From a virus: DNA of 33,292 nucleotides. The notes below the pieces were generated by a model. The model searched no databases. It saw only the letters and a list, made by a program, of their open reading frames with translations, and was not told the origin of the DNA. Positions 6,951 through 32,157 of this stretch are shown here, piece by piece (position 1 is the stretch's first letter; every line of letters begins with the position of its first letter). The position numbers and the translations under genes were made by a program. Where the stretch lies: positions 1 to 33,292 of the IMG/VR virus record IMGVR_UViG_3300050821_012817; one strand, 5' to 3'.

Positions 6951-6978
6951 GTGAACAGCCAGCGCGCTGGCATATACT
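6951..6978 (+). promoter_or_regulatory. rightward palindrome-spacer promoter
   Basis: -35 GTGAAC (6951-6956), a 16-bp spacer containing the perfect palindrome GCCAGCGCGCTGGC (6958-6971), and -10 TATACT (6973-6978). The same layout recurs at 8902, 14767, 16561 and 21012 (plus strand) and at 31966 (minus strand). A repressor bound to the palindrome would lie between the polymerase contacts. Confidence 0.8.
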
Positions 6979-6989
6979 GGTATTAAGCC

Positions 6990-7006
6990 GGTGGCAACGG
7001 GCCACT
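6990..7006 (+). other. 5'-leader stem-loop after the 6951 promoter
   Basis: GGTGGC (6990-6995) pairs with GCCACT (7001-7006) through one G-U pair across a five-base loop (aacgg). It begins 12 bases after the -10, close to the expected 5' end of the mRNA. The same element follows the other copies of this promoter. Confidence 0.6.
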
Positions 7007-7023
7007 TGTGTGGGGAGTCGGTA

Positions 7024-7185
7024 ATGAAGATTGAGATCGCGGTGTACCACACGCCGCAGGAGGCCGAAAAGGCCAAAAAAGAGCTCAACGCTATCTACGA
7101 CGGACTCGGCCAAAACTGCGACCTTGCCCGGTCCCGGCTTATCGAGGTAACCGCAAAGGAAGGCATGGTTGATGACTTCGACTAA
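7024..7185 (+). CDS. 53-residue protein of unknown function
   Basis: The ATG at 7024 follows GGGGAG by seven bases; an in-frame GTG at 6991 lies inside the leader hairpin and was rejected. The product has a beta-alpha-alpha-beta feel: MKIEIAVYHTPQEAEKAKKE, a helix, then LIEVTAKEGMVDDFD. The acidic C-terminus overlaps the next start. It is the first gene of a three- or four-gene rightward unit under the palindrome-spacer promoter, a position where phages often carry small early host-interacting proteins. No family was recognised. Confidence 0.7.
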   Translation: MKIEIAVYHTPQEAEKAKKELNAIYDGLGQNCDLARSRLIEVTAKEGMVDDFD

Positions 7186-7786
7186 AGCAAAACGCCAGGA
7201 GATAGCACGGCGGGTCCGGGACAAGATCCTCACCGACCCTGAGAGTCACCAACAGGAGTCGTGGGCTCTCATTGACCCCGCCGACGTTCTTAAGAAGGGC
7301 GTCCAAAAGGGCAAGTACACCGCGGTGCAATGCAACAGCACCGGCTGTGTCTGCGGCTGGGCATCCATGCTGTCGGGTGATTGGGCGATTATCACCGACG
7401 ATGGCTTGACGGATGAATTCGTCCTGCCGGGTGAAGATGAGCTTACGGAGCTGTACTCCATCCAATTCATCATTACCGAAGACGGCCGAGAGATGAATAT
7501 CGAGGACCGCGGCAAGGAGCTGCTGGGCCTGCTTGATTCAGAAAAAGACTGGCTGTTTAGCCCTGCGCGCGACCGCCTCGAGGTCCTGTACGCCTTGAAT
7601 GAGATCATTCAAGGTGGTCAGATCTCCTACTCAAGCCGTGGCCACCTCAAGCGCACGCTGACGCAAGAGCGGATCGCAGAGATCGTCACGCCGCCCACAA
7701 AGCCCGCCACAAAGGCGACTGAGGTCATTGACTTAAGTGACCTCATCCACGATGAAGAGCGCGTTGAACAGGGGATAGAGGCATGA
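7172..7786 (+). CDS. phage protein with a CxCGWA motif, unknown function
   Basis: 204 residues; ATG 7172 is preceded by AAGGAAGG and overlaps the end of the previous gene. It starts with a basic helix (MTSTKAKRQEIARRVRDKIL), then CNSTGCVCGWASMLSGDW and, further on, LLGLLDSEKDWLFSPARDRLE. The order 'G-CV-GWA--L-GD ... LLGL---...LF' is one I associate with a widespread uncharacterised family in actinobacteriophages, where the Cys/Trp segment and the helical C-terminal part recur (memory, not checked). The C-terminal 40 residues are Pro/Thr-rich then acidic. It overlaps the next gene at ATGA, so they are co-translated. Confidence 0.75.
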   Translation: MTSTKAKRQEIARRVRDKILTDPESHQQESWALIDPADVLKKGVQKGKYTAVQCNSTGCVCGWASMLSGDWAIITDDGLTDEFVLPGEDELTELYSIQFIITEDGREMNIEDRGKELLGLLDSEKDWLFSPARDRLEVLYALNEIIQGGQISYSSRGHLKRTLTQERIAEIVTPPTKPATKATEVIDLSDLIHDEERVEQGIEA

Positions 7787-8286
7787 CCGATAACGATTGG
7801 GTCGTCACCGTTGTTGTCGATACCGAGAAGACAACGGAGGAAATAGTCCGCTGGGAGGTGAACCTGTCGGAGTTCGACGGCTCCATTGCGCGCGTACCCG
7901 ACTGGGGCATCCACGCGACGCTCTACATGCCCGGTAAGTGGCCGCTGCGCACCGCGGTGGAGCAGGCCATCCGGGAGATCGACAAGACGCACGGCGTGGG
8001 ACCGGCCCCAAGAATCGACGGCGCCTACGCGATCCGCGAATCGGACTACCGTCGAATCTCCGATATGCCCAAAGCCAAACTCCTCAGCACGACGGAATCC
8101 CTTGCGTTGGTGGGAGTGTCCCGCTCGCGCTTTTGTCAGTTGCGTTCCACCGACGACAACTTCCCCAAGCCAGCAGCCATACTTGGCAAGCGCCCCCTAT
8201 GGGATGAGCGCGCCATGCAGAAGTACGCGCTGAACCGCAACATCAAACCGGGCAGGTCCAAGACATTGGAGCCAGTCACCGCATAG
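7783..8286 (+). CDS. two-part protein with a C-terminal AlpA/excisionase-like HTH
   Basis: 167 residues; its ATG overlaps the preceding stop. Residues 1-95 have no recognisable motif (WVVTVVVDTEKTTEEIVRWE, then DWGIHATLYMPGKWPL). From about residue 100 it reads LLSTTESLALVGVSRSRF, then QLRSTDDNFPKPAAILGK and LWDERAMQKYALNR, the pattern of MerR/AlpA-like excisionase HTH domains ('l-t--E-a-llgvs-s----l----dFP-P-----r-lW---ev--wl'). It could regulate phage promoters, and it is one candidate in this window for the palindrome-binding factor. A stem-loop at 8304-8334 follows its stop. Confidence 0.7.
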   Translation: MTDNDWVVTVVVDTEKTTEEIVRWEVNLSEFDGSIARVPDWGIHATLYMPGKWPLRTAVEQAIREIDKTHGVGPAPRIDGAYAIRESDYRRISDMPKAKLLSTTESLALVGVSRSRFCQLRSTDDNFPKPAAILGKRPLWDERAMQKYALNRNIKPGRSKTLEPVTA

Positions 8287-8303
8287 ACCAGTTGACGAAC
8301 GGT

Positions 8304-8334
8304 GCAGCCGGGCGACTACCTCCCGCTCGGCTGC
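8304..8334 (+). terminator. stem-loop after the 7783 gene
   Basis: GCAGCCGGGCG (8304-8314) pairs with CGCTCGGCTGC (8324-8334), 11 bp with one G-U pair and a nine-base loop. There is no T tract, so it is a terminator-like or mRNA-stabilising hairpin. Confidence 0.45.
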
Positions 8335-8356
8335 GCCGCCAACTTAGAAGGTAAGG

Positions 8357-8575
8357 GTGAGAAAGCCAAAGGAAGATGAGATCCCGGTCCTGCTGGCCGG
8401 TGGCATAGCCGCCTTCTTCTGGCCAGCAGGACTTCTCTGCTTTGCGTTCGCCCCAGATCGCGACGGCACCGTGTGGTGCATGGGTGCTATTTGTCTTGCC
8501 GTCGCCATACTCTTCACCGGCGTAGCCGGGATCGTGCTGGCCGTCGATCTGGGCTTGCGGGAGAAAAAGAAGTAG
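8357..8575 (+). CDS. small membrane protein with two transmembrane segments
   Basis: 72 residues from GTG 8357, with AGAAGG five bases upstream. After a short charged start (MRKPKEDEIP) come two hydrophobic helices, about residues 10-31 (VLLAGGIAAFFWPAGLLCFA) and 40-62 (WCMGAICLAVAILFTGVAGI), joined by a short FAPDRDG loop, and a basic tail LREKKK. The positive tail suggests both ends are cytoplasmic. It is small with two helices, but nothing beyond size suggests a holin. The first G-rich repeat array begins at its stop codon. Confidence 0.6.
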   Translation: MRKPKEDEIPVLLAGGIAAFFWPAGLLCFAFAPDRDGTVWCMGAICLAVAILFTGVAGIVLAVDLGLREKKK

Positions 8576-8890
8576 GCAGTCGAGGCATACGCGGCGCGAG
8601 GTATGGCATGGTGCGGCGCGGCAGGGCCTGGTGCGGCAAGGCGGTCATGGCGTGGCCGGGTCTGGACCGGCTGGGCTTGGTTAGGTCGGGCATGGCGCGG
8701 TGGGGCAGGGCGTGGCAGTCGAGGCAGCGCATGGTCTGGCTCAGCAAGGCGGCGCGTGGCAAGGCAGTCTAGGTCTGGCACGGCCGCGCGCGGTGGGGCC
8801 CGGTTTGGCAGGGCACGTCAAGGCAGTCACGGCACGGCTTGGTCCGGCACGGCACGGTGTGGCGTTTCTTGGTAGGGCTTGGCAGGGCCG
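8575..8890 (+). repeat. G-rich 5-bp repeat array 1 (GGYNN) with GGCAGTC heptamers
   Basis: About 315 bp made largely of pentamers that begin with GG on the plus strand (GGCAT, GGTGC, GGCGC, GGCAG, GGCCT and so on), in phase for long runs. The heptamer GGCAGTC breaks the phase at 8575, 8714, 8763 and 8822. Open frames here are by-products of the period-5 composition. GG every five bases on one strand could form two-tetrad G-quadruplexes. A matching array lies at 10270-10545. Confidence 0.85.
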
Positions 8891-8901
8891 GCAAAACCCT
8901 T

Positions 8902-8929
8902 TTGAAGCGCCAGCGCGCTGGCGTATAAT
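8902..8929 (+). promoter_or_regulatory. rightward palindrome-spacer promoter, best match
   Basis: -35 TTGAAG (8902-8907), a 16-bp spacer that is entirely palindromic (CGCCAGCGCGCTGGCG, 8908-8923) and a perfect -10 TATAAT (8924-8929). It drives the two genes at 9024 and 9782. Confidence 0.85.
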
Positions 8930-8935
8930 TAGTAG

Positions 8936-8961
8936 GTGAGGTTGGCAAGAGGCCAGCTCAC
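8936..8961 (+). other. 5'-leader stem-loop after the 8902 promoter
   Basis: GTGAG-G-TTGGC pairs with GCCAG-CTCAC around an AAGAG loop: ten pairs with one bulged G. It starts seven bases after the -10, at the expected transcript start. Confidence 0.6.
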
Positions 8962-9023
8962 CACATGTCGAGGCGAGATCGGAATGGTACAAGGCCATCC
9001 GACCACGAAAGGATTAGCCAGAC

Positions 9024-9713
9024 ATGGCTCCTCGCACCAAGACGGCCACGGAAGCCGATGGTGAGGCAAAAGTAGCGGCAGCAGAAGGCACAGCGCCTCC
9101 TGTCCAAATTCAGCGCATCCAAGTGGAGCGCATATTCGTCCCCATTGTGGGGACGGCCCCTTTGATCGTGCACCGCTTTGACGAGAAGGCGCGGCGCATG
9201 ATGCTGGAGAAGCAGACAGCCCGTAAGTCCCTGCGGGAGGTCCGCGACCCGCAGGCGGAGTATGAGGCCTGCTTGTACAAGATCTCCCGTAACGGCCAGG
9301 AGAGGTACGGCTTCCCCGCTAGCGCATTCCGCAAGGCCACCATTGGCGCCGCTCGGTTCTACGACAAGTCGGTGTCGATGACTGGACTGCGGCAGATGTT
9401 CATGGTCAAGGGCGTCTTGACCAAGGCAGATCCGTTGGCGCTGGTCGATATCGAAGGCAAGCCTGAGCCCCGAGAGGACACGGTGCGCCTACCCAACGGC
9501 AACGCTGAGGTTCGTTTCCGCGCCATGTTTGCAGAGTGGAGCGCCATGCTCGAAATCGAGTACGTGGCCAGCAGCATCTTCCAGGACTCGCTGTTGTCGC
9601 TGGTGGATGCCGGCGGTCAGTTCGTCGGTGTCGGGGACTGGCGTCCGGAGAAGACCGGCCAGTTTGGCACCTACGAGATCAGTGGAGACATCCAAAAGGA
9701 AAAGGTCGACTGA
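9024..9713 (+). CDS. 229-residue phage protein, unknown; C-terminal Gly-rich WRP motif
   Basis: The ATG at 9024 has GAAAGGA upstream. The N-terminal 35 residues are Ala/Thr/Glu-rich. Residues about 37-60 read RIFVPIVGTAPLIVHRFDEK, followed by a charged helix. The middle has RYGFPASAFRKATIGAARFY, and the end GGQFVGVGDWRPEKTGQFGT followed by YEI. I recognise this as a phage protein type without a firm function. The end pattern (GVGxWRPE-x5-GxFGxY) is reminiscent of the glycine-rich loops of RAMP/Cas7-like folds, which is only a hypothesis. With the next gene it forms a cassette bounded by two repeat arrays. Confidence 0.65.
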   Translation: MAPRTKTATEADGEAKVAAAEGTAPPVQIQRIQVERIFVPIVGTAPLIVHRFDEKARRMMLEKQTARKSLREVRDPQAEYEACLYKISRNGQERYGFPASAFRKATIGAARFYDKSVSMTGLRQMFMVKGVLTKADPLALVDIEGKPEPREDTVRLPNGNAEVRFRAMFAEWSAMLEIEYVASSIFQDSLLSLVDAGGQFVGVGDWRPEKTGQFGTYEISGDIQKEKVD

Positions 9714-9724
9714 ACCCAATGACT

Positions 9725-9763
9725 GGCGGCGGTGGCTCTTGGCGCATGGGAGCCGCCGCCGCC
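9725..9763 (+). terminator. strong GC stem-loop between the two cassette genes
   Basis: GGCGGCGGTGGCTC (9725-9738) pairs with GAGCCGCCGCCGCC (9750-9763), 14 bp with one G-U pair and an 11-base loop. Only TTATT follows, so it may attenuate rather than fully terminate transcription into the 9782 gene. Confidence 0.55.
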
Positions 9764-9781
9764 TTATTGAGAAAGGCAAGC

Positions 9782-10255
9782 ATGAGCGCGATATTGGAAG
9801 ACTATTTTCGGGACTGGTACAACTCCCACGGGAGGAGTCTGGACCTAGACGACATCCACGATGATGTCGCTAACCCGACGCACCCACTGCATGACCGTTA
9901 TGAGTGGGACGACGAGAAGGCTAGCCGTGAATACCGCAAGCAGCAGATCTCCCGCGATATTCGCAGCTGTCGAGTCGTCTATGTGTCAGACAAGGGTCGG
10001 CAAGCGGCAGCGCGTGAGTACCTGGCCAACCGGGAGATTGGCCGCGGCTTGAGTGGCTACACGGCGGCTAAGGAGGCGCTACAAGATCCCGACACCCTGC
10101 GCTTCCTCGAGATGACATTGGATGCAGAGGTCAAGAACCTCCGTCGTCGGTTTGAGCATCTCGTAGGGTACGCCTCCACCCTGGAACGGGAAGCTAATGC
10201 TTCCCGCAAGCGCAAGAAGGCCAAGAGGATTGAGGCCATCGAGCCGCCTGCCTAA
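9782..10255 (+). CDS. 157-residue charged helical protein, unknown
   Basis: ATG 9782 follows GAAAGG by five bases; an earlier in-frame start would run through the 9725-9763 hairpin and is unlikely. The protein is strongly charged and helical: MSAILEDYFRDWYNSHGR, then HPLHDRYEWDDEKASREYRK, ISRDIRSCRVVYVSDKGR and a long helix DAEVKNLRRRFEHLVGYAST, ending in a basic patch ASRKRKKAKRIE. The basic tail could contact nucleic acid. No domain was recognised. It follows the 9024 gene under the same promoter and is bounded downstream by repeat array 2. Confidence 0.65.
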   Translation: MSAILEDYFRDWYNSHGRSLDLDDIHDDVANPTHPLHDRYEWDDEKASREYRKQQISRDIRSCRVVYVSDKGRQAAAREYLANREIGRGLSGYTAAKEALQDPDTLRFLEMTLDAEVKNLRRRFEHLVGYASTLEREANASRKRKKAKRIEAIEPPA

Positions 10256-10269
10256 GCCATTTTTCCTCG

Positions 10270-10545
10270 AACCTGGGTATGGCCGGGCGGGGTTTGGCGA
10301 GGTTCGGCAACGCGAGGCAGTCAGCACACGGCAGGGCCTGCAGGGAACTCGGTTGGGCACGGCCTGGCACGGCCAGGCAGTCGTGGTGCGGCTTGGCGTG
10401 GCACGGCAACGCCAGGCAATGCGTGGCACGGCAGTCGTGGTTAGGCATGGATTGGCCATGCACCGCAGGGCTAGGCGCGGCAAGGCAGGCATGGTGCGGT
10501 ATGGCGGAGCGACGCGTGGTGGGGCTCGGCCTGGCAGGGCAATGC
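10270..10545 (+). repeat. G-rich 5-bp repeat array 2 (GGYNN) with GGCAGTC heptamers
   Basis: About 275 bp of the same composition and orientation as array 1, lying between the convergent genes ending at 10255 and 10545. GGCAGTC occurs at 10316, 10376 and 10430, spaced 60 and 54 bases. Short shared strings with array 1 (GGCATGGTGCGG, GGCACGGC) mark the two as related sequences. Confidence 0.83.
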
Positions 10546-11537
10546 TAAAGAGCGGCGCAGGCGGCCCAGCAGGAGAGCGCAGAACCCCAGGAGGTCACCT
10601 GGCCATATTCCTCATAGATGTGGCTGGCGTCCTTAGCCTCTTGCTCCAAGGAGGAGCCGTGTGGCATCTGTGGGTCTGAGGCATTGCGGATGATGAGCCA
10701 CGGCAGCTTGGCGTCCTCGAGCGCGTAGGCCATCGCTGCATCGTCCATCTCCACTGCGCGGGCCTTGGGGTCGAAGGTCTGTAGGCCATAGCTGTTCTCT
10801 TCATCGTCGAAGGCGAAGAAGTCCGTGGTGATGATGTGAGCAGGGTCGTCGCCGTCCAGCCAGAGCTGAGCCGGCCGCGTGAGGTTTGGCAGCGCTGAGC
10901 TTGTCTTCTGAAGCAGCGGCGTCACCTGTGCATATGTCGCTTCATCGATCGACGCCGTAGTCGTATACGCCTGACCGGCGAAGGCTGCCCCTTTGAACTG
11001 CTTGCGGCAGTCCCACGACACGTGGCCCGACACCACCACGTCGCCCAGCTGCGTAGTGCCCTGCACCGCGCCAGCCGTACCTGTAGAGATGACCAGGCTG
11101 GGCTCGGCCTGCTTGACCCACTGCTTCCACGCCGTGGCGATCGGCAGGCGCGGTCCATCCGTAGCTGGATGCAGGTTGGACTTCATCACCACGACCTTGG
11201 TGTCACCGATGGTGATCTGCGCCCAAATGCCGGAGCTGCGCGCCTGGAGAGCTGGCGCGCGGTGGCCCTCAATCAGCTGGTGGATAACGGAGAACCCGTT
11301 GCGGTAATTAGTCCAATCATCCGACGACAAGCCGGGTGTGAGGATATCTGCTAACGCCTCACCCTCAGCCTTGGTATAGGTGACGATGAGAACGTCGGCC
11401 TTGGGGAGGGGGTCATTGTCACCCGGTTTACCTGGAACGACCTTGGGCTTCTTGTCTTCCGGTAGCGGCAGCTCCGGGGGGAGGCGGCGGTGGGGGCTGG
11501 CAAGGATGCGGCGATACGCAAGTTCCAAGGTGTCCAT
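10545..11537 (-). CDS. nucleoside phosphorylase / MTA-SAH nucleosidase superfamily protein
   Basis: 330 residues from ATG 11535-11537. An upstream TTG in the same frame was rejected because a different frame there encodes a better small protein. Residues about 47-68 (DVLIVTYTKAEGEALADIL) open the fold; STGTAGAVQGTTQLGDVVVS (151-170) is the phosphate/ribose-loop region; AVEMDDAAMAYALEDAKLPW (261-280) carries the VEM ribose-binding motif; IIRNASDPQM holds a candidate catalytic Asp288. Such enzymes split N-glycosidic bonds of nucleosides. Substrate cannot be read here. It ends the leftward operon of glycosyltransferases. It could serve nucleotide salvage or remove a nucleotide-like signal or cofactor. 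Confidence 0.78.
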   Translation of the reverse strand: MDTLELAYRRILASPHRRLPPELPLPEDKKPKVVPGKPGDNDPLPKADVLIVTYTKAEGEALADILTPGLSSDDWTNYRNGFSVIHQLIEGHRAPALQARSSGIWAQITIGDTKVVVMKSNLHPATDGPRLPIATAWKQWVKQAEPSLVISTGTAGAVQGTTQLGDVVVSGHVSWDCRKQFKGAAFAGQAYTTTASIDEATYAQVTPLLQKTSSALPNLTRPAQLWLDGDDPAHIITTDFFAFDDEENSYGLQTFDPKARAVEMDDAAMAYALEDAKLPWLIIRNASDPQMPHGSSLEQEAKDASHIYEEYGQVTSWGSALSCWAACAAL

Positions 11538-11547
11538 ACGAGCCAGA

Positions 11548-11685
11548 TTAAACCCGGCGTTGCACGTTGGCCTGTCTCTTTGCCTCTTGTTCGAAGACAA
11601 ATTCACGAAATTTACGCCAGTCGTGGAACCCAAACAGGATGCACATAGTTTGGTAGTCGCGCTCAGACAGACGCTGACTGCTCAA
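11548..11685 (-). CDS. 45-residue helical mini-protein
   Basis: The frame starts at TTG 11683-11685 with GGAGG (11697-11701) upstream and stops nine bases before the phosphorylase ATG; a weaker ATG start lies at 11644-11646. The product reads MSSQRLSERDYQTMCILFGF, then HDWRKFREFVFEQEAKRQAN and VQRRV. Its balanced helical composition contrasts with the unlikely peptide in the phosphorylase frame over the same bases. It overlaps the glycosyltransferase end by 23 bases. No family was recognised. Confidence 0.5.
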   Translation of the reverse strand: MSSQRLSERDYQTMCILFGFHDWRKFREFVFEQEAKRQANVQRRV

Positions 11686-12349
11686 CGTCGACCTGTCCTC
11701 CATCGTCGTCCTCCCGTGTTTTAAGCAGATGTCGCATCAGCCACGGCCTCTTGCCGGCGCGGATGTACGGCTCTATTAGCGGTCGATTACGTGTCTCGTC
11801 GCGGGTCCAGCTCGGTTCCTGATCATGATTTATTGAGTAGACCGTACCGGGCATCCGGTTAACGCTGGATAGCGTCTCTGCAACGATATGGAAAGCTGCG
11901 TCTTCATACCCCCATCCATAGAATTCCGGCGGCTGCCCTCCCAGTCGCCAATACTCATCACGCGTACAGATCATCACCGCGCCGAGGCCTTTGGGATATT
12001 CCAGCAGGACTGGCGCGTCAACAAATTCCTCATACGGTCGGTCCACCCACTCTGCAGGAATGAGCACCCAGCGCGTAAAGGGCCAAGTAACACCCTCCGG
12101 GTGTTCTACCGCCGCCAATACGTTCTCCAGCGGGGGGATGGTGTCTGCATCAGCTATTACCACGACCTCCGACCGCGCCAGTCCTACGGCTCTATTCCTG
12201 GCCTGAGCAGCACTGAAGACATCACCGTCGCAATCCGCAGTAATGATGGGCCAACCAGTCTGTTCCCAGAAGGCCATCGTGCGCTCAAACGGAGGGAGTC
12301 GTGTAGGAGAGGACCGCCAAGGCACACATACGGTGACCTCAGGCTTCAT
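11663..12349 (-). CDS. glycosyltransferase, GT-A fold
   Basis: 228 residues from ATG 12347-12349, overlapping the preceding stop (ATGA) and following GGGGG. It starts MKPEVTVCVPWRSSPTRLPP; VVVIADADTIPPLENV contains the DxD-like metal motif at about residues 67-69; FYGWGYEDAAFHIVAET contains the GWGxED acceptor-site motif of the galactosyltransferase and GalNAc-transferase group at about 145-150. It should move a sugar from a nucleotide donor to an acceptor, probably a phage structural protein or cell-wall glycan. It works beside the GT25-like protein upstream and perhaps with the sugar enzymes at 24160-27050. Confidence 0.8.
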   Translation of the reverse strand: MKPEVTVCVPWRSSPTRLPPFERTMAFWEQTGWPIITADCDGDVFSAAQARNRAVGLARSEVVVIADADTIPPLENVLAAVEHPEGVTWPFTRWVLIPAEWVDRPYEEFVDAPVLLEYPKGLGAVMICTRDEYWRLGGQPPEFYGWGYEDAAFHIVAETLSSVNRMPGTVYSINHDQEPSWTRDETRNRPLIEPYIRAGKRPWLMRHLLKTREDDDGGQVDVEQSASV

Positions 12350-12594
12350 GAAGGCCCCCGCATAACCCCGCAGTGCACACACGACGTAGCACCCTTGAGA
12401 AACTCGTGCGGGCAGGCGGTCAGATCAACCTTGGACATAGGAACAGGCACTGGGGCACCGTGGTACCCATCGCACGTACAGGGTCGGCTGCCGGTGAAGC
12501 ATGCTCGAGTCTCATTCCAGCCCGTGAGAACCTGGACCCGGCAGCCCTCGTCGCCATGTTGCTCAGGCAAGTGTCCGCAGTTGGTGCATGCCAT
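12346..12594 (-). CDS. zinc-ribbon mini-protein
   Basis: About 82 residues from ATG 12592-12594 (GGAA nine to ten bases upstream); a TTG at 12651 would extend it over the previous stop. It carries CTNCGHLPEQHGDEGC near the start, a central CTCDGYHG, and CPHEFLKGATSCVHCG near the end, giving two likely zinc sites. It overlaps the glycosyltransferase start at ATGA. Mini-proteins like this are frequent in actinobacteriophages and mostly uncharacterised. Confidence 0.65.
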   Translation of the reverse strand: MACTNCGHLPEQHGDEGCRVQVLTGWNETRACFTGSRPCTCDGYHGAPVPVPMSKVDLTACPHEFLKGATSCVHCGVMRGPS

Positions 12595-12643
12595 GCAGTA
12601 AGTTTCCGATGGCACGGCGCTGTGGGATAAGCACCACGCCGCC

Positions 12644-13402
12644 TTAGCCAACCACCTTTTTTCTTTTCAGCGGCATCCAGTCGCCCTCAAGTGGGTGGAC
12701 AGTGCTCCAGCCTGGACACGTGCCTAGCTGGACAGCGGGCTGTTGCCAATTGGCGCGAGGTGGTCCAAAGTTCCATGCCTTGCGCGGTAGGTAGTGCGGT
12801 CCGCGGTGCGGTTTACCCACCGGATCAATATCCTGGTGATCGACTAAGCTGGGCTGTGGGTAGGCAATGAGGATCTTGTGCTGCTGAGCCCAGCGGGAAA
12901 TGCGTAATGGAAGTTCTTCTTTGCGGTCGGTAATCCCATCAATAATATCCTTGAGCAGGTCCCGTCGAATGGCATAACCGACGCCACCAATAAGGGCATC
13001 ACCAAGAATCCAGCCTTGTGAACGTGTTACTGCCTCTCGAATCTGGCGCTGCGTCTCCCCGGAGGGATTACCGGTCCCGAGGTACAAGCCCACAATAGGC
13101 GCAGGTGCCGACGCTAAGGCACGGCCAACCTCGTTACGGAAGTCATCGATCACCACGGCGTCGTCTTCCAGGACGACGACCCACTCACTGCGCTTGCGTT
13201 TCTCTTTCAGCTGGTTAAGAACTTCCAGGTGGTTGTCCTCGCACCCCAAGGTGCCGTCGTCTATATTGCAGACATCGGCATCAATGTCACCGCAGACCTT
13301 CTCGGCGCGCTCTTCTCGCTGCGTGTGTGCGACCATGCCAATCGCCACAGTATTACGCCAGTTCTGCTTTTTTTCCGGCAGTTCTTTAGGTGAATCTGGC
13401 AC
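12644..13402 (-). CDS. glycosyltransferase, GT25-like
   Basis: 252 residues from GTG 13400-13402, with GGAGAAAGG upstream, two bases after the previous stop. After a charged N-terminus it shows WRNTVAIGMVAHTQREERAE, then HLEVLNQLKEKRKRSEWVVV followed by LEDDAVVIDDF; the LEDD (about 78-81) is the metal-binding signature of GT25-type transferases. Further on it has GWILGDALIGGVGYAIRRD, which fits the 'G--gY-is----' segment of that family. The C-terminus is Trp/Pro-rich and basic. Product and acceptor are unknown; it is probably part of the same glycan pathway as its neighbour. Confidence 0.72.
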   Translation of the reverse strand: MPDSPKELPEKKQNWRNTVAIGMVAHTQREERAEKVCGDIDADVCNIDDGTLGCEDNHLEVLNQLKEKRKRSEWVVVLEDDAVVIDDFRNEVGRALASAPAPIVGLYLGTGNPSGETQRQIREAVTRSQGWILGDALIGGVGYAIRRDLLKDIIDGITDRKEELPLRISRWAQQHKILIAYPQPSLVDHQDIDPVGKPHRGPHYLPRKAWNFGPPRANWQQPAVQLGTCPGWSTVHPLEGDWMPLKRKKVVG

Positions 13403-13404
13403 TT

Positions 13405-13575
13405 CTAGGCCTTTCTCCGGTTAATTCCCAGGCGTTCATAGCTGGTTAAAGCGATTTCAAAGGGCTCAAATGAGCCTGGACACACATTATTCGCCTTGTC
13501 ATAGTGTCCGAAGATGCACTGATGGGGTGTTTTTGACACGGGCTGGTGACATACAGGGCACAAATGGTCAAGCAC
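13405..13575 (-). CDS. 56-residue zinc-finger mini-protein
   Basis: Found by translating the gap between the neighbouring genes. GTG 13573-13575 overlaps the upstream stop (TAGTG), and GAGAG lies just before it. The product reads MLDHLCPVCHQPVSKTPHQC, then IFGHYDKANNVCPGSFEPFE and IALTSYERLGINRRKA. It has CPVCH plus a later Cys/His set (HQC, GHY, VCPGS), typical of small treble-clef or zinc-ribbon proteins. It stops two bases before the GT25-like start, and its 3' end carries that gene's ribosome site. Confidence 0.72.
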   Translation of the reverse strand: MLDHLCPVCHQPVSKTPHQCIFGHYDKANNVCPGSFEPFEIALTSYERLGINRRKA

Positions 13576-13760
13576 TACTCTCGTCGATCCGTTCCACTAC
13601 GGCCAGCCTTCATGCGTTCCAGTGCGCGGCAGACGCCGGAGGCCGACATTCCAACTCTCTTAGCAATCTTGTGCATCGGCATACCGCGTGCGCGCAGTTG
13701 CCAGATCATCAAGTCACGCTCGTGTGCGTGTAGCGCATAGTAGCGCCCCTTTTGCTCCAC
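13575..13760 (-). CDS. small HTH protein
   Basis: 61 residues from GTG 13758-13760. The sequence MEQKGRYYALHAHERDLMIW then LRARGMPMHKIAKRVGMSAS and GVCRALERMKAGR forms a helix-turn-helix of the resolvase or IS21-like type (helix, 'g-s---IA--lgvs-s-V-r-l'), with a basic tail. It is probably a DNA-binding regulator and a second candidate for recognising the repeated palindrome. It overlaps the zinc mini-protein by one base. Confidence 0.65.
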   Translation of the reverse strand: MEQKGRYYALHAHERDLMIWQLRARGMPMHKIAKRVGMSASGVCRALERMKAGRSGTDRRE

Positions 13761-13807
13761 GTGCTTACTCTGCCACTTCTCTGTCCATTGCGCTTGAACG
13801 CAACGCC

Positions 13808-14026
13808 TTAATCACCGCAGGCCCGGCAACGCTCTTGTAGTTCACCTTGACGCTCCCAGTGCTCCAGAACGGCAACGGTGCCCTCAATCTCGATATCGGT
13901 GAGGTCCTTAAAGGATTCAACGTTGCGGTACAGGATCGCGCTGACGACGCGGTGCCTGTCCTCACGCGCAAGCGTCCCGGCTGACTGCAAAAGCATCATG
14001 AGCCGGGCCATGCGGCGATTACTCAT
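13808..14026 (-). CDS. 72-residue helical protein, unknown
   Basis: The ATG at 14024-14026 overlaps the stop of the vWA gene (ATGA). It reads MSNRRMARLMMLLQSAGTLA, then REDRHRVVSAILYRNVESFK, DLTDIEIEGTVAVLEHWERQ and GELQERCRACGD. It is mostly helical with a single CxxC at the end. A competing frame (13765-13971) overlaps it but lacks a good start. No family was recognised; the coupling implies joint expression with the vWA protein. Confidence 0.65.
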   Translation of the reverse strand: MSNRRMARLMMLLQSAGTLAREDRHRVVSAILYRNVESFKDLTDIEIEGTVAVLEHWERQGELQERCRACGD

Positions 14027-14655: not shown

Positions 14656-14705
14656 CGATGCTCCATCTCTTGCATGCCAGCCCGGATGGCCGGCTTTACC
14701 TCGCC

Positions 14706-14740
14706 ATTATACCGGGGTCGCCAGCCCGCTGGCATATAAC
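14706..14740. promoter_or_regulatory. two-way palindromic promoter site
   Basis: The palindrome GCCAGCCCGCTGGC (14720-14733) is followed on the plus strand by TATAAC (14735-14740), as in the other copies, but has no -35 there (CGGGGT). Leftward, a perfect TATAAT lies at 14706-14711, eight bases from the palindrome, and is well placed to transcribe the vWA operon. A leftward hairpin, GCCGGCC-atccg-GGCTGGC, follows in that leader. Confidence 0.5.
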
Positions 14741-14766
14741 GGTGCATGCCAATCAGAGTAACCCTA

Positions 14767-14794
14767 CTGAATAGCCAGCGCGCTGGCATATACT
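14767..14794 (+). promoter_or_regulatory. rightward palindrome-spacer promoter
   Basis: -35 CTGAAT (14767-14772), a 16-bp spacer with GCCAGCGCGCTGGC (14774-14787), and -10 TATACT (14789-14794). It lies 54 bases after the two-way copy at 14720. Confidence 0.8.
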
Positions 14795-14802
14795 GGTAAC
14801 AC

Positions 14803-14820
14803 GGTTGGCAAATGGCCACC
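14803..14820 (+). other. 5'-leader stem-loop after the 14767 promoter
   Basis: GGT-(T)-GGC (14803-14809) pairs with GCCACC (14815-14820), with one bulged T and an AAATG loop. It begins eight bases after the -10. Confidence 0.6.
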
Positions 14821-14835
14821 CGCAAGGAGGAACGC

Positions 14836-16560: not shown

Positions 16561-16588
16561 CCGAATAGCCAGCGCGCTGGCGTAGGCT
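16561..16588 (+). promoter_or_regulatory. rightward palindrome-spacer promoter, weak -10
   Basis: -35 CCGAAT (16561-16566), a 16-bp spacer with GCCAGCGCGCTGGC (16568-16581), and -10 TAGGCT (16583-16588), which is a poor match. The palindrome and leader are fully conserved. Confidence 0.65.
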
Positions 16589-16596: not shown

Positions 16597-16617
16597 CGGT
16601 TGGCGGAGGGTCAACCG
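16597..16617 (+). other. 5'-leader stem-loop after the 16561 promoter
   Basis: CGGTTGGC (16597-16604) pairs with GTCAACCG (16610-16617), 8 bp with one G-U pair. The five-base loop is GGAGG, a perfect Shine-Dalgarno core, although no start codon follows it at working distance. Confidence 0.65.
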
Positions 16618-17340: not shown

Positions 17341-17374
17341 CCGCTCAACCCGGCCACAAATGGAAGTAGGAGAA

Positions 17375-18823
17375 ATGCTCGGTTATCGAGTACCAGCGCC
17401 TGATCAGGCAATGCTGATCTCAGGCGGCAAGCAGAAGGCAGAGGGGGGCGGTCAGTTTAAGATCGTCACTGGCCATGGAGCCTGGGTATTGCCCGGATTC
17501 CGCAAGGTCCGATTCCTCAGCTTGGAAACCCACAAGGTCGAGGTTGCAGAGAAGTGTTACACCAAGCACGGCATTACCGTCGAGGTTGAAGCGGTCGTGG
17601 CGTTCAAGGTCGACAACACGCCTACCGCAATCACGGCAGCAGCGCAGCGTTTCCTCAACGACCAAAAGAAGGGAGCCATGGAGGACCTGACGCAGAAGAT
17701 CTTTGTCGGCCACCTCCGCGGCATCATTGGTCGGTTGACCATTGAGGAGCTCATCCAAGAGCGCGAGAAGCTCACCATGGAAGTCTTGACCGGCTCCCAA
17801 AATGAGATGTCGGTGATGGGCCTGACCGTCGATTCACTACAGATTGAAGCCTTCAACGACGGGGGGAGTAACTACATCGCCAACATGGCCAAACCGCAGA
17901 TGGCTGCGCTGGAGCAGGCTGCCAAGATCGCACAGGCCAAGGCTGACCAGGCCTCCCAAGCTGAGCAGCAAAAGTCACTGCGTGAGCAGGCTAGGGAAGC
18001 ACGCGACACTGAGATTGCCAATGCTCAATACGCCGCAGAGACCCAGGCTGCTGCTGCTGAGGCCGCACAGGCTGGACCGCTGGCAACCGCTGAGCATCAG
18101 CAGAAGGTTATTGCTATGCAAAGCGACCTGGCCCAACGCAACGCAGAGCTGCGCCAGCAACAACTGGTCGCTGAGGTGATCAAGCCGGCGGAAGCGGCTG
18201 CCGAACAGGCTCGTATCCAAGCCCAGGGCCAAGCTGCTGCTGCGGAGGCTAACGCTGAGCGTGTCAAGTGGGAAGCGTCGGCCAAGGCCAACAAAGATCG
18301 CCAAGAGGCTGAGGCGGCTGCCGACGTGGCTCGAGCCAAGGCCACCGCCGATCGCGACAGTGCACTACTGGCTGCGGAGGCTATCGAACGCCAGGGTGAG
18401 GCCGACGCAACCGCAGATCTTGCCAGAGGCAATGCTGCTGCCGCCGCGAAGAAAGCCTATGGGTTGGCTGAGGCGGCTGGTGAGGAAGCCAAGGCCAAGG
18501 CATACGCCGCGGATGAGGGCGCCCAGCTACGGATGGCGGAGATTAACAACCAGCCGTTGATTGCCGAGGCAATTGCGCGAGGCTTAGGACTCAACGGCGC
18601 CAACCTGACCATCCTCGATGGTCCGGAGGGGTTGACCAAGACGATGGCCACCATTGCGCCGATGATCAGCATGGTTGCTCAGATGTTTGGTGGCCAGAGC
18701 GCCAAGCCCGATACCAACGGGGCTCCGATCACTGAAACCCTGCAGAGGGTACGCGCTGAGGAGAAGGCGTGGGATGCGATCACTAACCAGGCCGTAGGGG
18801 CCACCGCGGACGGCAAGATCTAA
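17375..18823 (+). CDS. flotillin-like SPFH / band-7 protein
   Basis: About 482 residues from ATG 17375 (GGAG lies very close, two bases away); an ATG at 17360 without a ribosome site adds five residues. The SPFH domain covers about residues 5-190: YRVPAPDQAMLISGGKQK, VTGHGAWVLPGFRKVRFLSL, TKHGITVEVEAVVAFKV, GHLRGIIGRLTIEELIQERE and MGLTVDSLQIEAF. Residues about 195-420 are the Ala/Gln/Glu coiled coil typical of flotillins (LREQAREARDTEIANAQYAA, AELRQQQLVAEVIKPAEAAA). The C-terminus GLNGANLTILDGPEGL matches the family end. There is no N-terminal membrane helix, so association must be peripheral. Flotillins form membrane scaffolds and in Bacillus work alongside PspA. From memory it resembles cellular actinobacterial flotillins. 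Confidence 0.9.
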   Translation: MLGYRVPAPDQAMLISGGKQKAEGGGQFKIVTGHGAWVLPGFRKVRFLSLETHKVEVAEKCYTKHGITVEVEAVVAFKVDNTPTAITAAAQRFLNDQKKGAMEDLTQKIFVGHLRGIIGRLTIEELIQEREKLTMEVLTGSQNEMSVMGLTVDSLQIEAFNDGGSNYIANMAKPQMAALEQAAKIAQAKADQASQAEQQKSLREQAREARDTEIANAQYAAETQAAAAEAAQAGPLATAEHQQKVIAMQSDLAQRNAELRQQQLVAEVIKPAEAAAEQARIQAQGQAAAAEANAERVKWEASAKANKDRQEAEAAADVARAKATADRDSALLAAEAIERQGEADATADLARGNAAAAAKKAYGLAEAAGEEAKAKAYAADEGAQLRMAEINNQPLIAEAIARGLGLNGANLTILDGPEGLTKTMATIAPMISMVAQMFGGQSAKPDTNGAPITETLQRVRAEEKAWDAITNQAVGATADGKI

Positions 18824-21011: not shown

Positions 21012-21039
21012 CTGAACCGCCAGCGCGCTGGCGTATAAT
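21012..21039 (+). promoter_or_regulatory. rightward palindrome-spacer promoter
   Basis: -35 CTGAAC (21012-21017), a spacer that is the full 16-bp palindrome CGCCAGCGCGCTGGCG (21018-21033), and -10 TATAAT (21034-21039). It drives the gene series from 21089. Confidence 0.85.
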
Positions 21040-21048
21040 TGGGGTAGC

Positions 21049-21068
21049 GGTTGGCAGTAGAGCTAACC
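21049..21068 (+). other. 5'-leader stem-loop after the 21012 promoter
   Basis: GGTTGGC (21049-21055) pairs with GCTAACC (21062-21068), seven pairs with one G-U, loop AGTAGA. It begins nine bases after the -10. Confidence 0.65.
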
Positions 21069-21088
21069 CTAGGCACCAAGGGGAAGGG

Positions 21089-28038: not shown

Positions 28039-28500
28039 ATGAGCGTCTTGCGCTTTGCACTCCAGCCGGGGGGATGTACGTTGCTCCCCTTCGATACAGT
28101 GGCGGGACGATGCGCTCGTTGTGGAAACGGCCTGGTGGGAGGCCAAGCTCGCTGGTGTAGCACCACCTGTGAGCAGCAGTACAACCGCAACCACAACTGG
28201 AGTACTGCACGTCAGGCAGCCTTACAGCGGGATGGGCACCGCTGCGTTAAGTGCAACTGGATGCCGGAGAATTGCGGCTATTTGAACAACGGCCAGTTTG
28301 TCCTGTGGAGCAGAAGCAACCTAACCCTGGAACCAGAGTCCAACTGGCTTGAGGTCAACCACATCATCCCGCGGCGGGGAGCTGGCTACGACTTCGGCTG
28401 CCACCATCACCTGGCCACACTCGAGACCCTCTGCCACCAGTGTCACGTCAAAGTGACTCGCCGGCAGCGGCGCCAGTGGAGCCGGCCGCTGGCGGTCTAA
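28039..28500 (+). CDS. HNH endonuclease
   Basis: 153 residues from ATG 28039, though no ribosome site is visible; ATGs at 27967 or a TTG at 28081 are alternatives. It carries CARCGNGLVGGQARWCSTTC (four-Cys zinc knuckle), a basic helix (WSTARQAALQRDGHRCVKC), then WLEVNHIIPRRGAGY and LETLCHQCHVKVTRRQ, the core of the HNH fold with the catalytic His in EVNHI. Such phage enzymes can be free-standing homing nucleases or packaging/defence nucleases. It is not next to the terminase, so a homing or host-DNA role fits better. Confidence 0.85.
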   Translation: MSVLRFALQPGGCTLLPFDTVAGRCARCGNGLVGGQARWCSTTCEQQYNRNHNWSTARQAALQRDGHRCVKCNWMPENCGYLNNGQFVLWSRSNLTLEPESNWLEVNHIIPRRGAGYDFGCHHHLATLETLCHQCHVKVTRRQRRQWSRPLAV

Positions 28501-28511
28501 GGTTCTGCTTC

Positions 28512-29297
28512 ATGGACCCGCAACGCTATATCGAGCTGGTGAAGAGCAGCCTGACCGTTTCCCTCTACAAGGACTACGACGGTGACATCTGGCAACCGCA
28601 GGGCTGGCGTCAGCGGCTAGCGAGCTGGCTGCTGCCGAGGAACTTGAGGGTCAGCACCCCGGTGGTGGCTGAGGACCGGGAGAACGGTAAGGACCACGTA
28701 CCCACCCTCGCGCTCACCATGGTGGGAAGGCGCCGGCTGGACAACCTGCATGAATGCGTGGAGACAGCCCTGGAAGAGAACATCGCCGGTGACTTAATCG
28801 AGACTGGTGTCTGGAGGGGAGGCTGCCTGATCCTCATGCAAGCGATCCTGACGGCCCACGGCGTGACCGACCGCACCGTGTTTGCTGCCGACAGCTTTGA
28901 GGGGATGCCTAAAGGGGAGTATGCCCAGGACAAACACTTCAACAGCTGGGACTTCGACGGCATCGCCGTGTCAATGGAGCAGGTCAAGCAGAACCTTACC
29001 CGCTACGGGCTCTTGGACGGTACGGTCTTCCTTCCAGGCTGGTTTAAGGACACGCTGCCCGAAGCGCCGGATGGCCCGCTTGCTGTGGTCCGTCTGGATG
29101 GTGACTTCTATGAGAGCACCATGACGGGCCTGCAGTACCTCTACCCACGGTTGTCCTCCGGTGGCTTCCTGATTGTGGATGACTACAATTGCCTCGATGC
29201 GTGCAAGCAAGCAGTAGACGACTACAGAGAACAGCACAGGATTACCGTACCGATGAAATCCGTGGACTGGGCTGGCATCTACTGGCGCAAGGACTAG
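28512..29297 (+). CDS. TylF/macrocin O-methyltransferase family protein (copy 2)
   Basis: 261 residues; ATG 28512 follows TAAGG. The family pattern is very clear: IAGDLIETGVWRGGCLILMQ (E97), FAADSFEGMPKGEYAQDKHF, FLPGWFKDTLPEAPDGPLAV, VVRLDGDFYESTMTGLQYLY (D196, D198) and FLIVDDYNCLDACKQAVDDY (D223, D224). It O-methylates a sugar with S-adenosylmethionine, with a metal held by the Asp residues. The N-terminal 60 residues are the usual helical lid. It lies in a different operon from copy 1, so the two may modify different positions. Its 3' end overlaps a convergent gene by four bases. Confidence 0.9.
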   Translation: MDPQRYIELVKSSLTVSLYKDYDGDIWQPQGWRQRLASWLLPRNLRVSTPVVAEDRENGKDHVPTLALTMVGRRRLDNLHECVETALEENIAGDLIETGVWRGGCLILMQAILTAHGVTDRTVFAADSFEGMPKGEYAQDKHFNSWDFDGIAVSMEQVKQNLTRYGLLDGTVFLPGWFKDTLPEAPDGPLAVVRLDGDFYESTMTGLQYLYPRLSSGGFLIVDDYNCLDACKQAVDDYREQHRITVPMKSVDWAGIYWRKD

Positions 29298-30997: not shown

Positions 30998-31269
30998 CAG
31001 TCTTTCTCCACTCCACATCCGCAAAAGTCACCCTGGCCCATCGCGTGGGAGCAAATCAGCGGGCCATTGTGGTACCCCGCTACGGGCTCAGGGAAGCGTG
31101 ACCGGTCATGGTGTTCTTCATTCCAGTGGCCGCACTTGTTGCAGCGGCCCTTGGCGTGGGTCTTCGCATGACGTGTGGTAAAGGCGTTGAGGTTCTCATC
31201 ATGCAACCAAAAGTGCTCACCGCAGTCATTGCAGCGGATCTGGACGACGGTGTACGTGGGCTCCGTCAT
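30997..31269 (-). CDS. 90-residue zinc-binding protein
   Basis: ATG 31267-31269 overlaps the previous gene. It has RCNDCGEHFWLHDENLNAF, then KGRCNKCGHWNEEHHDRSRF and ICSHAMGQGDFCGCGVEKD. CNDC, a His-rich turn and CNKCGHWNEEHH suggest two zinc ribbons. 'CNKCGHWNEEHHD' resembles the 'C--CGH---EHH-' motif of the 82-residue protein at 12346. Confidence 0.67.
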   Translation of the reverse strand: MTEPTYTVVQIRCNDCGEHFWLHDENLNAFTTRHAKTHAKGRCNKCGHWNEEHHDRSRFPEPVAGYHNGPLICSHAMGQGDFCGCGVEKD

Positions 31270-31460
31270 ACCAAGTGCAGTCCGTTTTCGTCTGCTGAGC
31301 CATAACGGGTTTCTATCAACCGTCTTACTCCATCAGACGCGATGACGGCGCCCTTGATAAACCCTTTCGACCAGAACCGCTGATTCTCGCCAGAGTCCAC
31401 GTCGCAGTGCAGCTTCATCTCCTGGCCGTCATCCAACTCGGCCGTCACGGTAACTCTCAT
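31266..31460 (-). CDS. 64-residue beta-rich protein, unknown
   Basis: ATG 31458-31460 overlaps the stop of the 155-residue gene. MRVTVTAELDDGQEMKLHCD, then SGENQRFWSKGFIKGAVIAS and DGVRRLIETRYGSADENGLH. Alternating hydrophobic residues suggest a small beta barrel. Part of it resembles the end of the 118-residue protein at 23572. Confidence 0.62.
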   Translation of the reverse strand: MRVTVTAELDDGQEMKLHCDVDSGENQRFWSKGFIKGAVIASDGVRRLIETRYGSADENGLHLV

Positions 31461-31924
31461 ACGCAGACCACTCCTCGCTCTCGCAATTCGTCTGTTGCCT
31501 TCCAGCGGTGGCTGTTCTGCTCCGACAAGTTGCGTACCAGCCCGCGGTTGCGGAGGTATTGCAGGCTAGAGCTGATTTCCAGAATGGGGTAGTCCAACGC
31601 GCTCGATAACGTCCGGGCGCTGACACTCTTTTTCCGGCTGGCCAGGTACTTGGCGATGCGGAAGTGACGGTGCTGGTGCCGCGTGGGTGGCAGCTTGGCC
31701 GGGCCTGCTTCTTCCCAGTCCTCTTGCTCTGCCAGGTAGTCCCGGGGCTCGTCGTCCACTTCTTCGTCACCGTCTAGTCCAAATGGCGGGGCGTAGGATG
31801 TTGACGTTGTTTCTCGGGGCTCCAGTCCCTTGGCGCTGTAGAGCGACGCTTCCAGGGCGTCCAAAAATTGACGGGCGCGTGCAATACTTCCGGGCTCGTC
31901 ACTAACTTTCAAGGTGATCTCCAC
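31457..31924 (-). CDS. 155-residue protein with winged-helix-like C-terminal domain
   Basis: GTG 31922-31924 is the start: GAGGAGG lies just upstream and the longer frame would begin inside the promoter at 31966. The N-terminal part (EITLKVSDEPGSIARARQFL, then ALEASLYSAKGLE) is followed by an acidic linker and, from about residue 85, HRHFRIAKYLASRKKSVSAR and TLSSALDYPILEISSSLQYL ending RNRGLVRNLSEQNSHRWKAT: a winged-helix arrangement. It is the first gene behind a palindrome-spacer promoter and may be its regulator (inference). Confidence 0.7.
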   Translation of the reverse strand: MEITLKVSDEPGSIARARQFLDALEASLYSAKGLEPRETTSTSYAPPFGLDGDEEVDDEPRDYLAEQEDWEEAGPAKLPPTRHQHRHFRIAKYLASRKKSVSARTLSSALDYPILEISSSLQYLRNRGLVRNLSEQNSHRWKATDELRERGVVCV

Positions 31925-31965
31925 CTTGCCTCCTCTGTCTTCATGCCATAGGTGGCCTCTCTTTA

Positions 31966-31993
31966 AGTATACGCCAGCGCGCTGGCTACTCGC
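31966..31993 (-). promoter_or_regulatory. leftward palindrome-spacer promoter
   Basis: Leftward -35 GCGAGT (31988-31993), a 16-base spacer with GCCAGCGCGCTGGC (31973-31986), and -10 TATACT (31966-31971). It drives the 31924-29294 operon. The leader has a shorter hairpin, GCCA-ccta-TGGC. The flank CGCACTGCTGGTGGCGAGTA resembles the flank of the copy at 18-31. Confidence 0.75.
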
Positions 31994-32080
31994 CACCAGC
32001 AGTGCGGACGTTAATTCTCGTGACCAGGGCTTTTCTAGTTAGTTGCTCTATGCTTCTGTATCGGGGGGACAAGAAAAGTC

Positions 32081-32100
32081 AATGTTTCACGTGAAACATT
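32081..32100. promoter_or_regulatory. perfect parS centromere site
   Basis: AATGTTTCACGTGAAACATT is a perfect 20-bp palindrome whose central 16 bases TGTTTCACGTGAAACA equal the bacterial chromosomal parS consensus recognised by ParB. No parA or parB gene lies in the window. It is intergenic, about 90 bases from the leftward promoter at 31966. Confidence 0.85.
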
Positions 32101-32143
32101 CGGGTCATTATTCTGGTCCAGTGCTGGTCACAGAGCTATTGGT

Positions 32144-32157
32144 GCCAGCGTGCTGGC
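32144..32157. promoter_or_regulatory. isolated operator-like palindrome
   Basis: GCCAGCGTGCTGGC matches the repeated palindrome except one central base. No -10 or -35 is placed as in the other copies, so it may be a stand-alone binding site; a weaker half-copy, CCAGTGCTGG, lies at 32118-32127. Confidence 0.45.

Follow-up and report, generated by a model that had tools for sequence, protein, structure and literature searches.

Predicted palindrome-bearing promoters followed by a leader hairpin recur in an actinophage fragment and its relatives: a possible family of three-part regulatory cassettes

The window analysed here is a virus record of 33,292 bases (IMG/VR record IMGVR_UViG_3300050821_012817, also G000 below) in which one palindrome, GCCAGC-NN-GCTGGC, occurs nine times, mostly inside predicted promoters, with an RNA stem-loop following at the five main plus-strand sites. 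The elements are regularly spaced, the stem-loop covaries and the arrangement recurs in other phages. Terminase, portal and protease genes lie at the left end of the window on the minus strand. The terminase is 52-54% identical to those of Mycobacterium phages Typha, Hilltopfarm, Nadezda and Bipper, and at best 75% identical over near-full length to IMG/VR contigs (77% to a partial one). The source is a virus of Actinobacteria. Since the genomes of these four isolates measure 75-78 kb, the window probably covers less than half of the genome of its phage. There was no near DNA match to its bases 1-25000 among 50,697 phage records. Relatives referred to throughout are Typha and Bipper, which are M. 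smegmatis phages whose records annotate integrase and repressor genes, and the 97-kb contig IMGVR_UViG_3300046533_000211 (G007; terminase 62%).

Palindromes and promoter boxes in the window

A first-pass annotation of the window had placed nine palindromes in it and argued that they were not due to chance. All nine coordinates are correct, with six exact copies (6958, 8909, 14774, 16568, 21019 and 31973) and three one-base variants (18, 14720 and 32144). The arms are invariant in 9/9 and variation is confined to the central two bases, as expected of a dimer site. Markov-1 and Markov-3 simulations (200 each) gave a mean of 0.01 copies and a maximum of 1, which supports the original argument; the same arms with a gap of 0, 1 or 3-12 occur nowhere in the window. 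The sites are as follows.

18..31, minus strand: palindrome variant; at best TATTGT; leftward off the contig
6958..6971, plus strand: palindrome, operator candidate; -35 GTGAAC 6951-6956, -10 TATACT 6973-6978
8909..8922, plus strand: palindrome; -35 TTGAAG 8902-8907, -10 TATAAT 8924-8929
14720..14733, strand unassigned: palindrome variant between divergent genes; plus-strand TATAAC 14735-14740, minus-strand TATAAT 14711-14706
14774..14787, plus strand: palindrome; -35 CTGAAT 14767-14772, -10 TATACT 14789-14794
16568..16581, plus strand: palindrome; -35 CCGAAT 16561-16566, -10 TAGGCT 16583-16588
21019..21032, plus strand: palindrome; -35 CTGAAC 21012-21017, -10 TATAAT 21034-21039
31973..31986, minus strand: palindrome; -35 GCGAGT 31993-31988, -10 TATACT 31971-31966
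32144..32157, strand unassigned: palindrome variant; -10 absent on both strands

A -10-like hexamer, defined as at least 5/6 matches to TATAAT within 0-2 nt of the palindrome on either strand, adjoins six of the nine (6958, 8909, 14720, 14774 and 21019 on the plus strand, 31973 on the minus strand). The background frequency of such hexamers is 0.30% over all positions and 0.55% over those between genes, giving a binomial P of about 2e-12 for at least six of nine. Palindrome 16568 adjoins TAGGCT, a 3/6 match. Scored on the relevant strand at the best of three spacings, the upstream hexamers match TTGACA at 4/6 positions for 8909, 3/6 for 6958, 14774, 21019 and 31973, 2/6 for 16568 and 1/6 for 14720. 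Because these matches are weak, the NTGAAN found there is a motif of its own. The earlier proposal of a composite promoter element is supported, with -10 boxes far above their 0.3-0.6% background and weak -35 boxes. The spacer of the five main promoters is 16 bp, or 17 with the -35 shifted by one. Site 14720 has a good plus-strand -10 without a -35 and, on the minus strand, a TATAAT about 9 nt further on; it perhaps serves the divergent gene pair 14655/14836. The best box at site 18 is TATTGT on the minus strand (4/6), and 32144 has no -10 on either strand (3/6). A general sigma-70 scan of positions 6500-22000 found no excess of promoters over shuffled sequence (4 vs 4.3), its four matches including the promoter at 8909 (P8909) and the minus-strand box at 14720. 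The case therefore rests on the repeated composite and not on promoter consensus.

The sites had also been described as intergenic or at gene edges, which agrees with our ORF-scoring script (ORF, open reading frame; predicted coding 77.6%): eight of nine palindromes avoid predicted genes, and 31973 touches no more than the mechanically extended 5' part of ORF 31457-31996, for which GTG 31933 after GGAGG, as read from the sequence, is the likely start.

Between palindromes 31973 and 32144 lies a perfect TGTTTCACGTGAAACA (32083-32098), the consensus of chromosomal parS. Single near copies of this type occur in G007 (91533, 1 mismatch) and in a further record, G001 (78818, 2 mismatches, symmetry kept), and it is possible that the phage makes use of host ParB.

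The leader hairpin and its recurrence in related phages

The first-pass annotation recognised the promoter with its palindrome and overlooked both the leader hairpin and the fact that spacer sequences differ between phages. All five main plus-strand sites have a stem-loop after the -10, with the outline GGTTGGC-AAnrG-GCCAnCC. With a distance of 12-14 nt between the -10 and its core, the stem begins at about the expected transcript start. Over the cassettes of the window and G007 together, this distance is 11-14 nt in 19/19, the G007 -10 boxes having been picked by script within a limited range. The hairpins of the window are:

6987..7009, plus strand: leader hairpin of P6958; z -0.92, not significant alone
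8935..8962, plus strand: leader hairpin of P8909; z -4.26
14802..14822, plus strand: leader hairpin of P14774; z -2.00
16597..16617, plus strand: leader hairpin of P16568; z -3.88
21045..21071, plus strand: leader hairpin of P21019; z -2.98
31956-31945, minus strand: weak hairpin of 31973, GCCA-CCTA-TGGC, 4-bp stem; z -0.99

At 14720 there is practically no hairpin (z -0.25).

The 14 aligned G007 hairpins contain 10 double-change cells, a count reached in 1/500 shuffles, and their covariation score was reached in 0/500. We then aligned 43 hairpins (41 distinct) picked by hand: from the window, three of four core matches with 16568 and 21019 added by hand; 14/36 from G007; 10/16 core matches from G001; and, from Typha and Bipper, 6/8 and 8/9 matches of another core pattern. 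In this set 89% of cells are paired and 48 carry a double change, against 14.1 after shuffling (0/500) and at most 18 when slid. The number of pairs with a double change did not stand out from shuffles (57/500 for the 14 G007 rows, 390/500 for the 43 hairpins); for further pair types the corresponding values were 31/500 and 12/500. Because the set was hand-picked and the inner three pairs follow from the core pattern itself (row 21019 being off by one loop base in this alignment), we made an unpicked test on all 31 matches (27 distinct) to core, ribosome site and start in the window, G007 and G001. The outer four pairs were 75.9% paired versus 51.7% in shuffles (0/500), with 35 double-change cells versus 14.0 (0/500), and G007 alone and G001 alone agreed (double changes 1/500 and 0/500). 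The covariation of the hand-picked set is thus borne out, at lower pairing (75.9% vs 89%). The same core in eight other records gave a much weaker excess (48.3% paired vs 39.4%, 5/500; 24 double changes vs 19.8, 72/500).

The succession of core, ribosome site and start occurs 15 times in G007 (1.6 expected), 13 times in G001 (0.2), 3 times in the window (0.2), twice in Typha (0.4), once in the part of Bipper searched (0.3) and 0 or 1 times in six other records. The Typha and Bipper counts are low because their hairpins mostly use GGT/ACC. Rfam at gathering score gave 0 matches in the window and tRNAs only in Typha and in Bipper 30-78 kb.

Scanning of related phages, as had been suggested, revealed a recognisable and repeated composite promoter element. 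In G007, a scan for stronger promoters found the layout, roughly, TTGCAATT-GCTAGCNNGNTATG-C-TATAAT, then the hairpin core GGCACCAGGCC, then a ribosome site; it is repeated and its spacer differs from that of the window. We trained a covariance model, R1, on 14 G007 cassettes alone (13 of 16 script-picked plus 30992; 19677 and 32632 on the plus strand and 25137 on the minus strand were dropped). Its top four matches in the window are the cassettes of 14774 (14754-14828, E 3.8e-7), 8909 (8881-8966, E 2.7e-6), 6958 (6930-7016, E 1.4e-4) and 21019 (20991-21076, E 7e-3). Over 19 records at E up to 0.01, six match: the window (4), G001 (9), G002 (1), G007 (25, including the 14 used in training), Typha (6) and Bipper (7). 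All nine matches in G001, and several in Typha and Bipper, cover the leader part only (in G001, from model position 46 on). The 13 records without a match include the integrase-bearing G009-G011 and Gordonia phage UmaThurman.

In Typha and Bipper the promoter half reads GTTGCG-N11/12-GTCTAG-TGAG-CTATAAC, about 8 nt before a hairpin GGGGC-A-GGT-ACCAG-ACC-A-GCCCC (a cruder pattern giving a distance of 10-18 nt was not used). Here the dyad, GTCTAG-N4-CTATAA, overlaps the -10. Two Typha copies, at 69037 and 67195, show symmetric changes (GTATAG-TGCC-CTATAC and GTCTAG-TGGA-CTAGAC). These cassettes precede small nonstructural genes and lie on the plus strand except in one Typha case. A second model, R2, built from 12 Typha and Bipper cassettes, at E up to 0.1 found 14 matches in Typha, 10 in Bipper (from 30 kb) and 6 in G007; 12 of the 24 Typha and Bipper matches are the training cassettes. 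In G002 we found TTGCAG-GTGCCACCACGCTGGTG-TATTAT with the spacer dyad CACCA-CGC-TGGTG, and contig L012 has the same stretch. G001 has no repeated palindromic promoter and a single window-type candidate, at 58783 on the minus strand: GTGAGTA-GCCAGTTGTCTGGC-TAAAAT, a hairpin CGGTGGC-AAAGG-GTCGCCG, GGAGGA and ATG. Where GCCAGCGCGCTGGC occurs exactly in a relative, it does so once and has no adjoining -10 (G008 17850; Typha 67621, within annotated gene 111). The predicted operator thus lies at a roughly, not strictly, similar position in the different phages, and its sequence differs among them.

Other searches yielded less. Two exact patterns of the same cassette had 0 matches in IMG/VR, where near-identical records may be left out. 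A blastn search of one cassette against phages returned seven records at E about 9, which is chance. A generic scan for dyad, -10 and hairpin was too noisy, with about as many matches in reversed controls, and of its output only the matches in the window and G007 and that at G001 58783 were looked at further.

Dispersed intergenic double hairpins were seen in G001 at about 55-74 kb on the minus strand (L041, L042). In one example the order is CCCCGGCCAGGGTCGAACCTGGCCGGGG, TACGAG, leader hairpin and GGAGGA. In these doubles the first hairpin has a loop that resembles a tRNA T-loop.

Proposed mechanism, competing explanations and candidate regulators

We consider it fairly probable that these elements are three-part cassettes, each combining a repressor-type operator in a host-sigma promoter with a 5' hairpin. 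The parts would be a host sigma-70/SigA-type promoter, a dyad-symmetric operator between its -35 and -10, and a short stem-loop located where the transcript is predicted to begin. Dyads with constant arms in a spacer of normal length point to a dimeric helix-turn-helix (HTH) protein that competes with RNA polymerase. Such a protein, the most likely ligand of the dyads, is probably phage-encoded, outside the 33-kb fragment. When bound it would exclude the polymerase, and about six transcription units would be repressed together (repression seems to us likelier than activation), either in the prophage state or at early-gene shut-off. The hairpin most likely protects the mRNA 5' end or tunes translation. 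It is known that 5' stem-loops can protect mRNA from 5'-end-dependent decay, and the placement at the predicted 5' end suggests such a role. More tentatively, a group of actinophages might share a fixed chassis, made of the host-type promoter and an ANNRG-loop 5' hairpin read by a common factor, into which each lineage has set its own operator; one small phage protein could then silence dozens of accessory genes and give them a regulatory specificity apart from that of the classical immunity repressor.

Several observations count against the operator interpretation. Two of the nine window sites (18 and 32144) have no convincing promoter. R1 misses 16568 (E 1.2) and scores 31973 (E 0.075) level with a non-site at 25747 (E 0.076), and R2 gives no match in the window at E up to 0.1. 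The G007 dyad is imperfect: of its six arm pairs, 0-5 form in the register we used, compared with a random mean of 1.6. Of the 19 Typha and Bipper motif copies we measured 15 (leaving out Typha 33310 and 70493 and Bipper 2338 and 18426); 12 of these pair four of six arm positions, one pairs five and two pair all six. The conserved spacer of G007, Typha and Bipper may be a promoter-recognition sequence. At Typha 70493 and Bipper 32338 the motif runs into a start codon without a hairpin. Finally, the G001 hairpins mostly lack a palindromic promoter and instead follow a different, terminator-like hairpin, so the hairpin is separable from the operator.

The conserved spacer might instead be read by a phage activator, or by a factor binding RNA polymerase, that switches this promoter class on. 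We regard this as unlikely, even though the -35 boxes are weak and the spacer sequence in G007, Typha and Bipper is conserved beyond its symmetry. MerR-type promoters have an over-long spacer of 19-20 bp, unlike the normal 16-18 bp found here (16 bp in the five main promoters, 17 with the shift); the -10 boxes are mostly near consensus, and the motif of Typha and Bipper shares bases with the -10 itself. The sharing of flanking letters beyond the palindrome (AACCCTACTGAATA, GGTTGGC) raises the question of whether the cassettes are recent duplicates of one promoter, in which the palindrome is kept by descent without a dedicated binding protein. This we find improbable: the palindrome is identical at 14/14 positions in the five main sites while their flanks differ, 32144 retains the arms without a promoter, and the arms change symmetrically in Typha 69037 and 67195. 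It is very improbable that the palindromes serve structure or maintenance (partition, replication or recombination) and stand in promoters by coincidence. Two palindromes do flank the parS-type site at 32083, and two sites have no convincing -10, but six of nine adjoin a -10 box against a background below 1%, and a dyad-like spacer inside the promoter is kept in G007 and G002.

As for the protein that would bind the dyads, the first-pass annotation had named three HTH candidates, at 7783, 13575 and 31457, none of which we find convincing. The first matches phrog_597 at only E 1.5e-4. The second shares 77% identity over 61 aa with the product of a G001 gene, and in G001 the palindromic promoter is not repeated. 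The third has a palindrome upstream, but its winged-helix matches are weak and no relative of its product was found at E up to 1 in 11 other records (G004 not among them).

31457..31933, minus strand: winged-helix candidate gene behind palindrome promoter 31973; weak matches

HTH_3 gave no match in the window or G001 and one below cut-off in G007. A tyrosine integrase profile had no match in the window, G001 or G007, serine integrases not having been searched for. The suggestion of a host regulator is unsupported: in a species-level collection of genomes, palindrome plus -10 (GCCAGCNNGCTGGCRTATAMT) occurs as five scattered single copies, and the 7.5-8 kb retrieved for these contain no second palindrome.

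A different family is suggested by Bipper, in which 8 nt separate a dyad, GTCTAG-AGAG-CTAGAC, from the downstream gp39, a small annotated HTH DNA-binding protein. Typha gp37 is a relative of gp39 (57.5% over 80 aa). A gene of G007, located at 42.7 kb, is in turn a relative of gp37 (35% over 49 aa, E 3e-6); its start codon follows AATGCCTAGTGAGGTATGCTAAT, a cassette-type promoter and weak R1 match (E 0.0058). A second G007 gene, at 10.5 kb, matches phrog_686 (E 3.5e-9); the only exact GCTACCNNGGTAGC in the contig is 154 nt from the start of this gene. Against this, the phrog_686 profile is generic, matching in 14/14 control genomes and 12/13 records, so that the link of the gp39/gp37 family to the dyad can be called suggestive only. 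The records matched include G001 (83-aa frame, E 3.6e-4), and the window has only two HTH stretches (E 0.002 and 0.003) and no clear relative. The absence of the dyad from the annotated immunity-repressor regions of Typha and Bipper counts against the operator interpretation. In both phages the gp39/gp37 gene lies just beyond the lysis genes; with the same order here, a regulator gene of this type would lie beyond the window's left end.

Known dispersed sites and the genes behind the cassettes

The repressor gp33 of phage BPs has dispersed palindromic 12-bp sites, binds five regions and regulates four promoters; its operator palindrome is CGACATATGTCG, the full operator consisting of two half sites typically 5-8 bp apart (PMC4557955). 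BPs is, like the source of the window, an actinophage with dispersed palindromic sites; the palindrome sequence differs, and the leader hairpin that belongs to the cassette here is unmentioned for BPs in the portion of that text drawn on (PMC4557955). In phiC31, too, multiple repressor sites are dispersed over an actinophage genome (PMC4557955), a likeness to the several dispersed sites seen here. The window resembles BPs and phiC31 in having many copies of one dyad (9 in 33 kb, 0.01 expected) and in the overlap of the copies with predicted promoters (6/9 adjoin a -10). The phiC31 repressor sites are inverted repeats. L5 and other Cluster A phages have more than 20 dispersed sites, typically in short intergenic regions and bound by one phage repressor; these sites are asymmetric, oriented and monomer-bound, and most are proposed to stop elongation (PMC9283540, PMC9934374). 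The window sites are likewise dispersed and intergenic, but they are symmetric, unlike the asymmetric 13-14 bp stoperators in one orientation, and lie mostly inside predicted promoters. Cluster O phages have more than 30 copies of 17-bp dyad repeats with invariant arms and a variable centre, as here; the majority lie away from predicted promoters, and a role in transcriptional regulation seemed unlikely to the authors (PMC4351075), whereas the window copies are mostly at predicted promoters. In Cluster K, the 13-bp SAS, GGGATAGGAGCCC, stands at translation starts ahead of nonstructural genes, and the ESAS, 17-bp inverted repeats with a variable spacer, upstream of about half of the SAS (PMC3203893). 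Both are repeated elements before genes, as in the window, where sequence and place differ.

Among titles and abstract openings, a coverage that leaves subscription papers outside, we found no description of this cassette or hairpin. Operators scattered over a phage genome are familiar from BPs, phiC31 and L5; the present elements depart from these in being built of three parts, in sharing an RNA hairpin and in having operators that differ between phages. Actinophages carry many small, nonstructural genes without an assigned function, and little is understood of their switching as groups. The cassette marks possibly co-regulated genes directly from sequence, including in the culturable phages Typha and Bipper. 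If the dyad is an operator, it would define a second regulon besides immunity, and if the hairpin is protein-bound or blocks decay it would be a new RNA element.

The first genes behind the plus-strand cassettes encode a 53-aa protein (P6958; 7024), a phrog_4652 protein (P8909; 9024), a 171-aa protein followed by PspA/IM30 (P14774; 14836 and 15457), a 160-aa protein with an SPFH/flotillin-like protein further on (P16568; 16648), and a protein of 100 aa that weakly matches transporters and holins (P21019; 21089). Behind 31973, leftward, lies 31457. The operon limits are predicted ones. If the regulon is real, that of the window phage would include the PspA- and flotillin-like membrane proteins.

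9024..9713, plus strand: phrog_4652 protein, first gene after P8909
15457..16263, plus strand: PspA/IM30 protein downstream of P14774 in a presumed operon; PF04012, E 1.8e-43
17360..18823, plus strand: SPFH/flotillin-like protein downstream of P16568 in a presumed operon; NCBIfam FloT below cut-off

The PspA/IM30 and flotillin-like SPFH genes are about 1.1 kb apart, a membrane-stress pair that seems unusual for a phage. No relatives of the 9024 and 17360 proteins were confirmed in IMG/VR. Those of the 14023 protein gave 17 loci; these were scanned for the generic module alone, with no convincing case. Other cargo includes a phosphorylase-superfamily protein (10545-11633), an enzyme of UDP-glucose dehydrogenase type (25099-26322) and a TylF-type O-methyltransferase (28440-29297).

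The right end of the window (32200-33292) appears by eye to be GC-rich and repeat-rich, with inverted repeats. GGYNN tracts, with GG every 5 bases, occur in the window at 8585-8890 and 10262-10545 and in G001 at about 90405-91100 (minus strand). The number of GG pairs at spacing 5 per 300 nt reaches 39 in the window (median 2) and 42 in G001 (median 1). Could these tracts be an origin or an annealing site? In both the window and G001, one lies just upstream of gene 9024 or its homologue.

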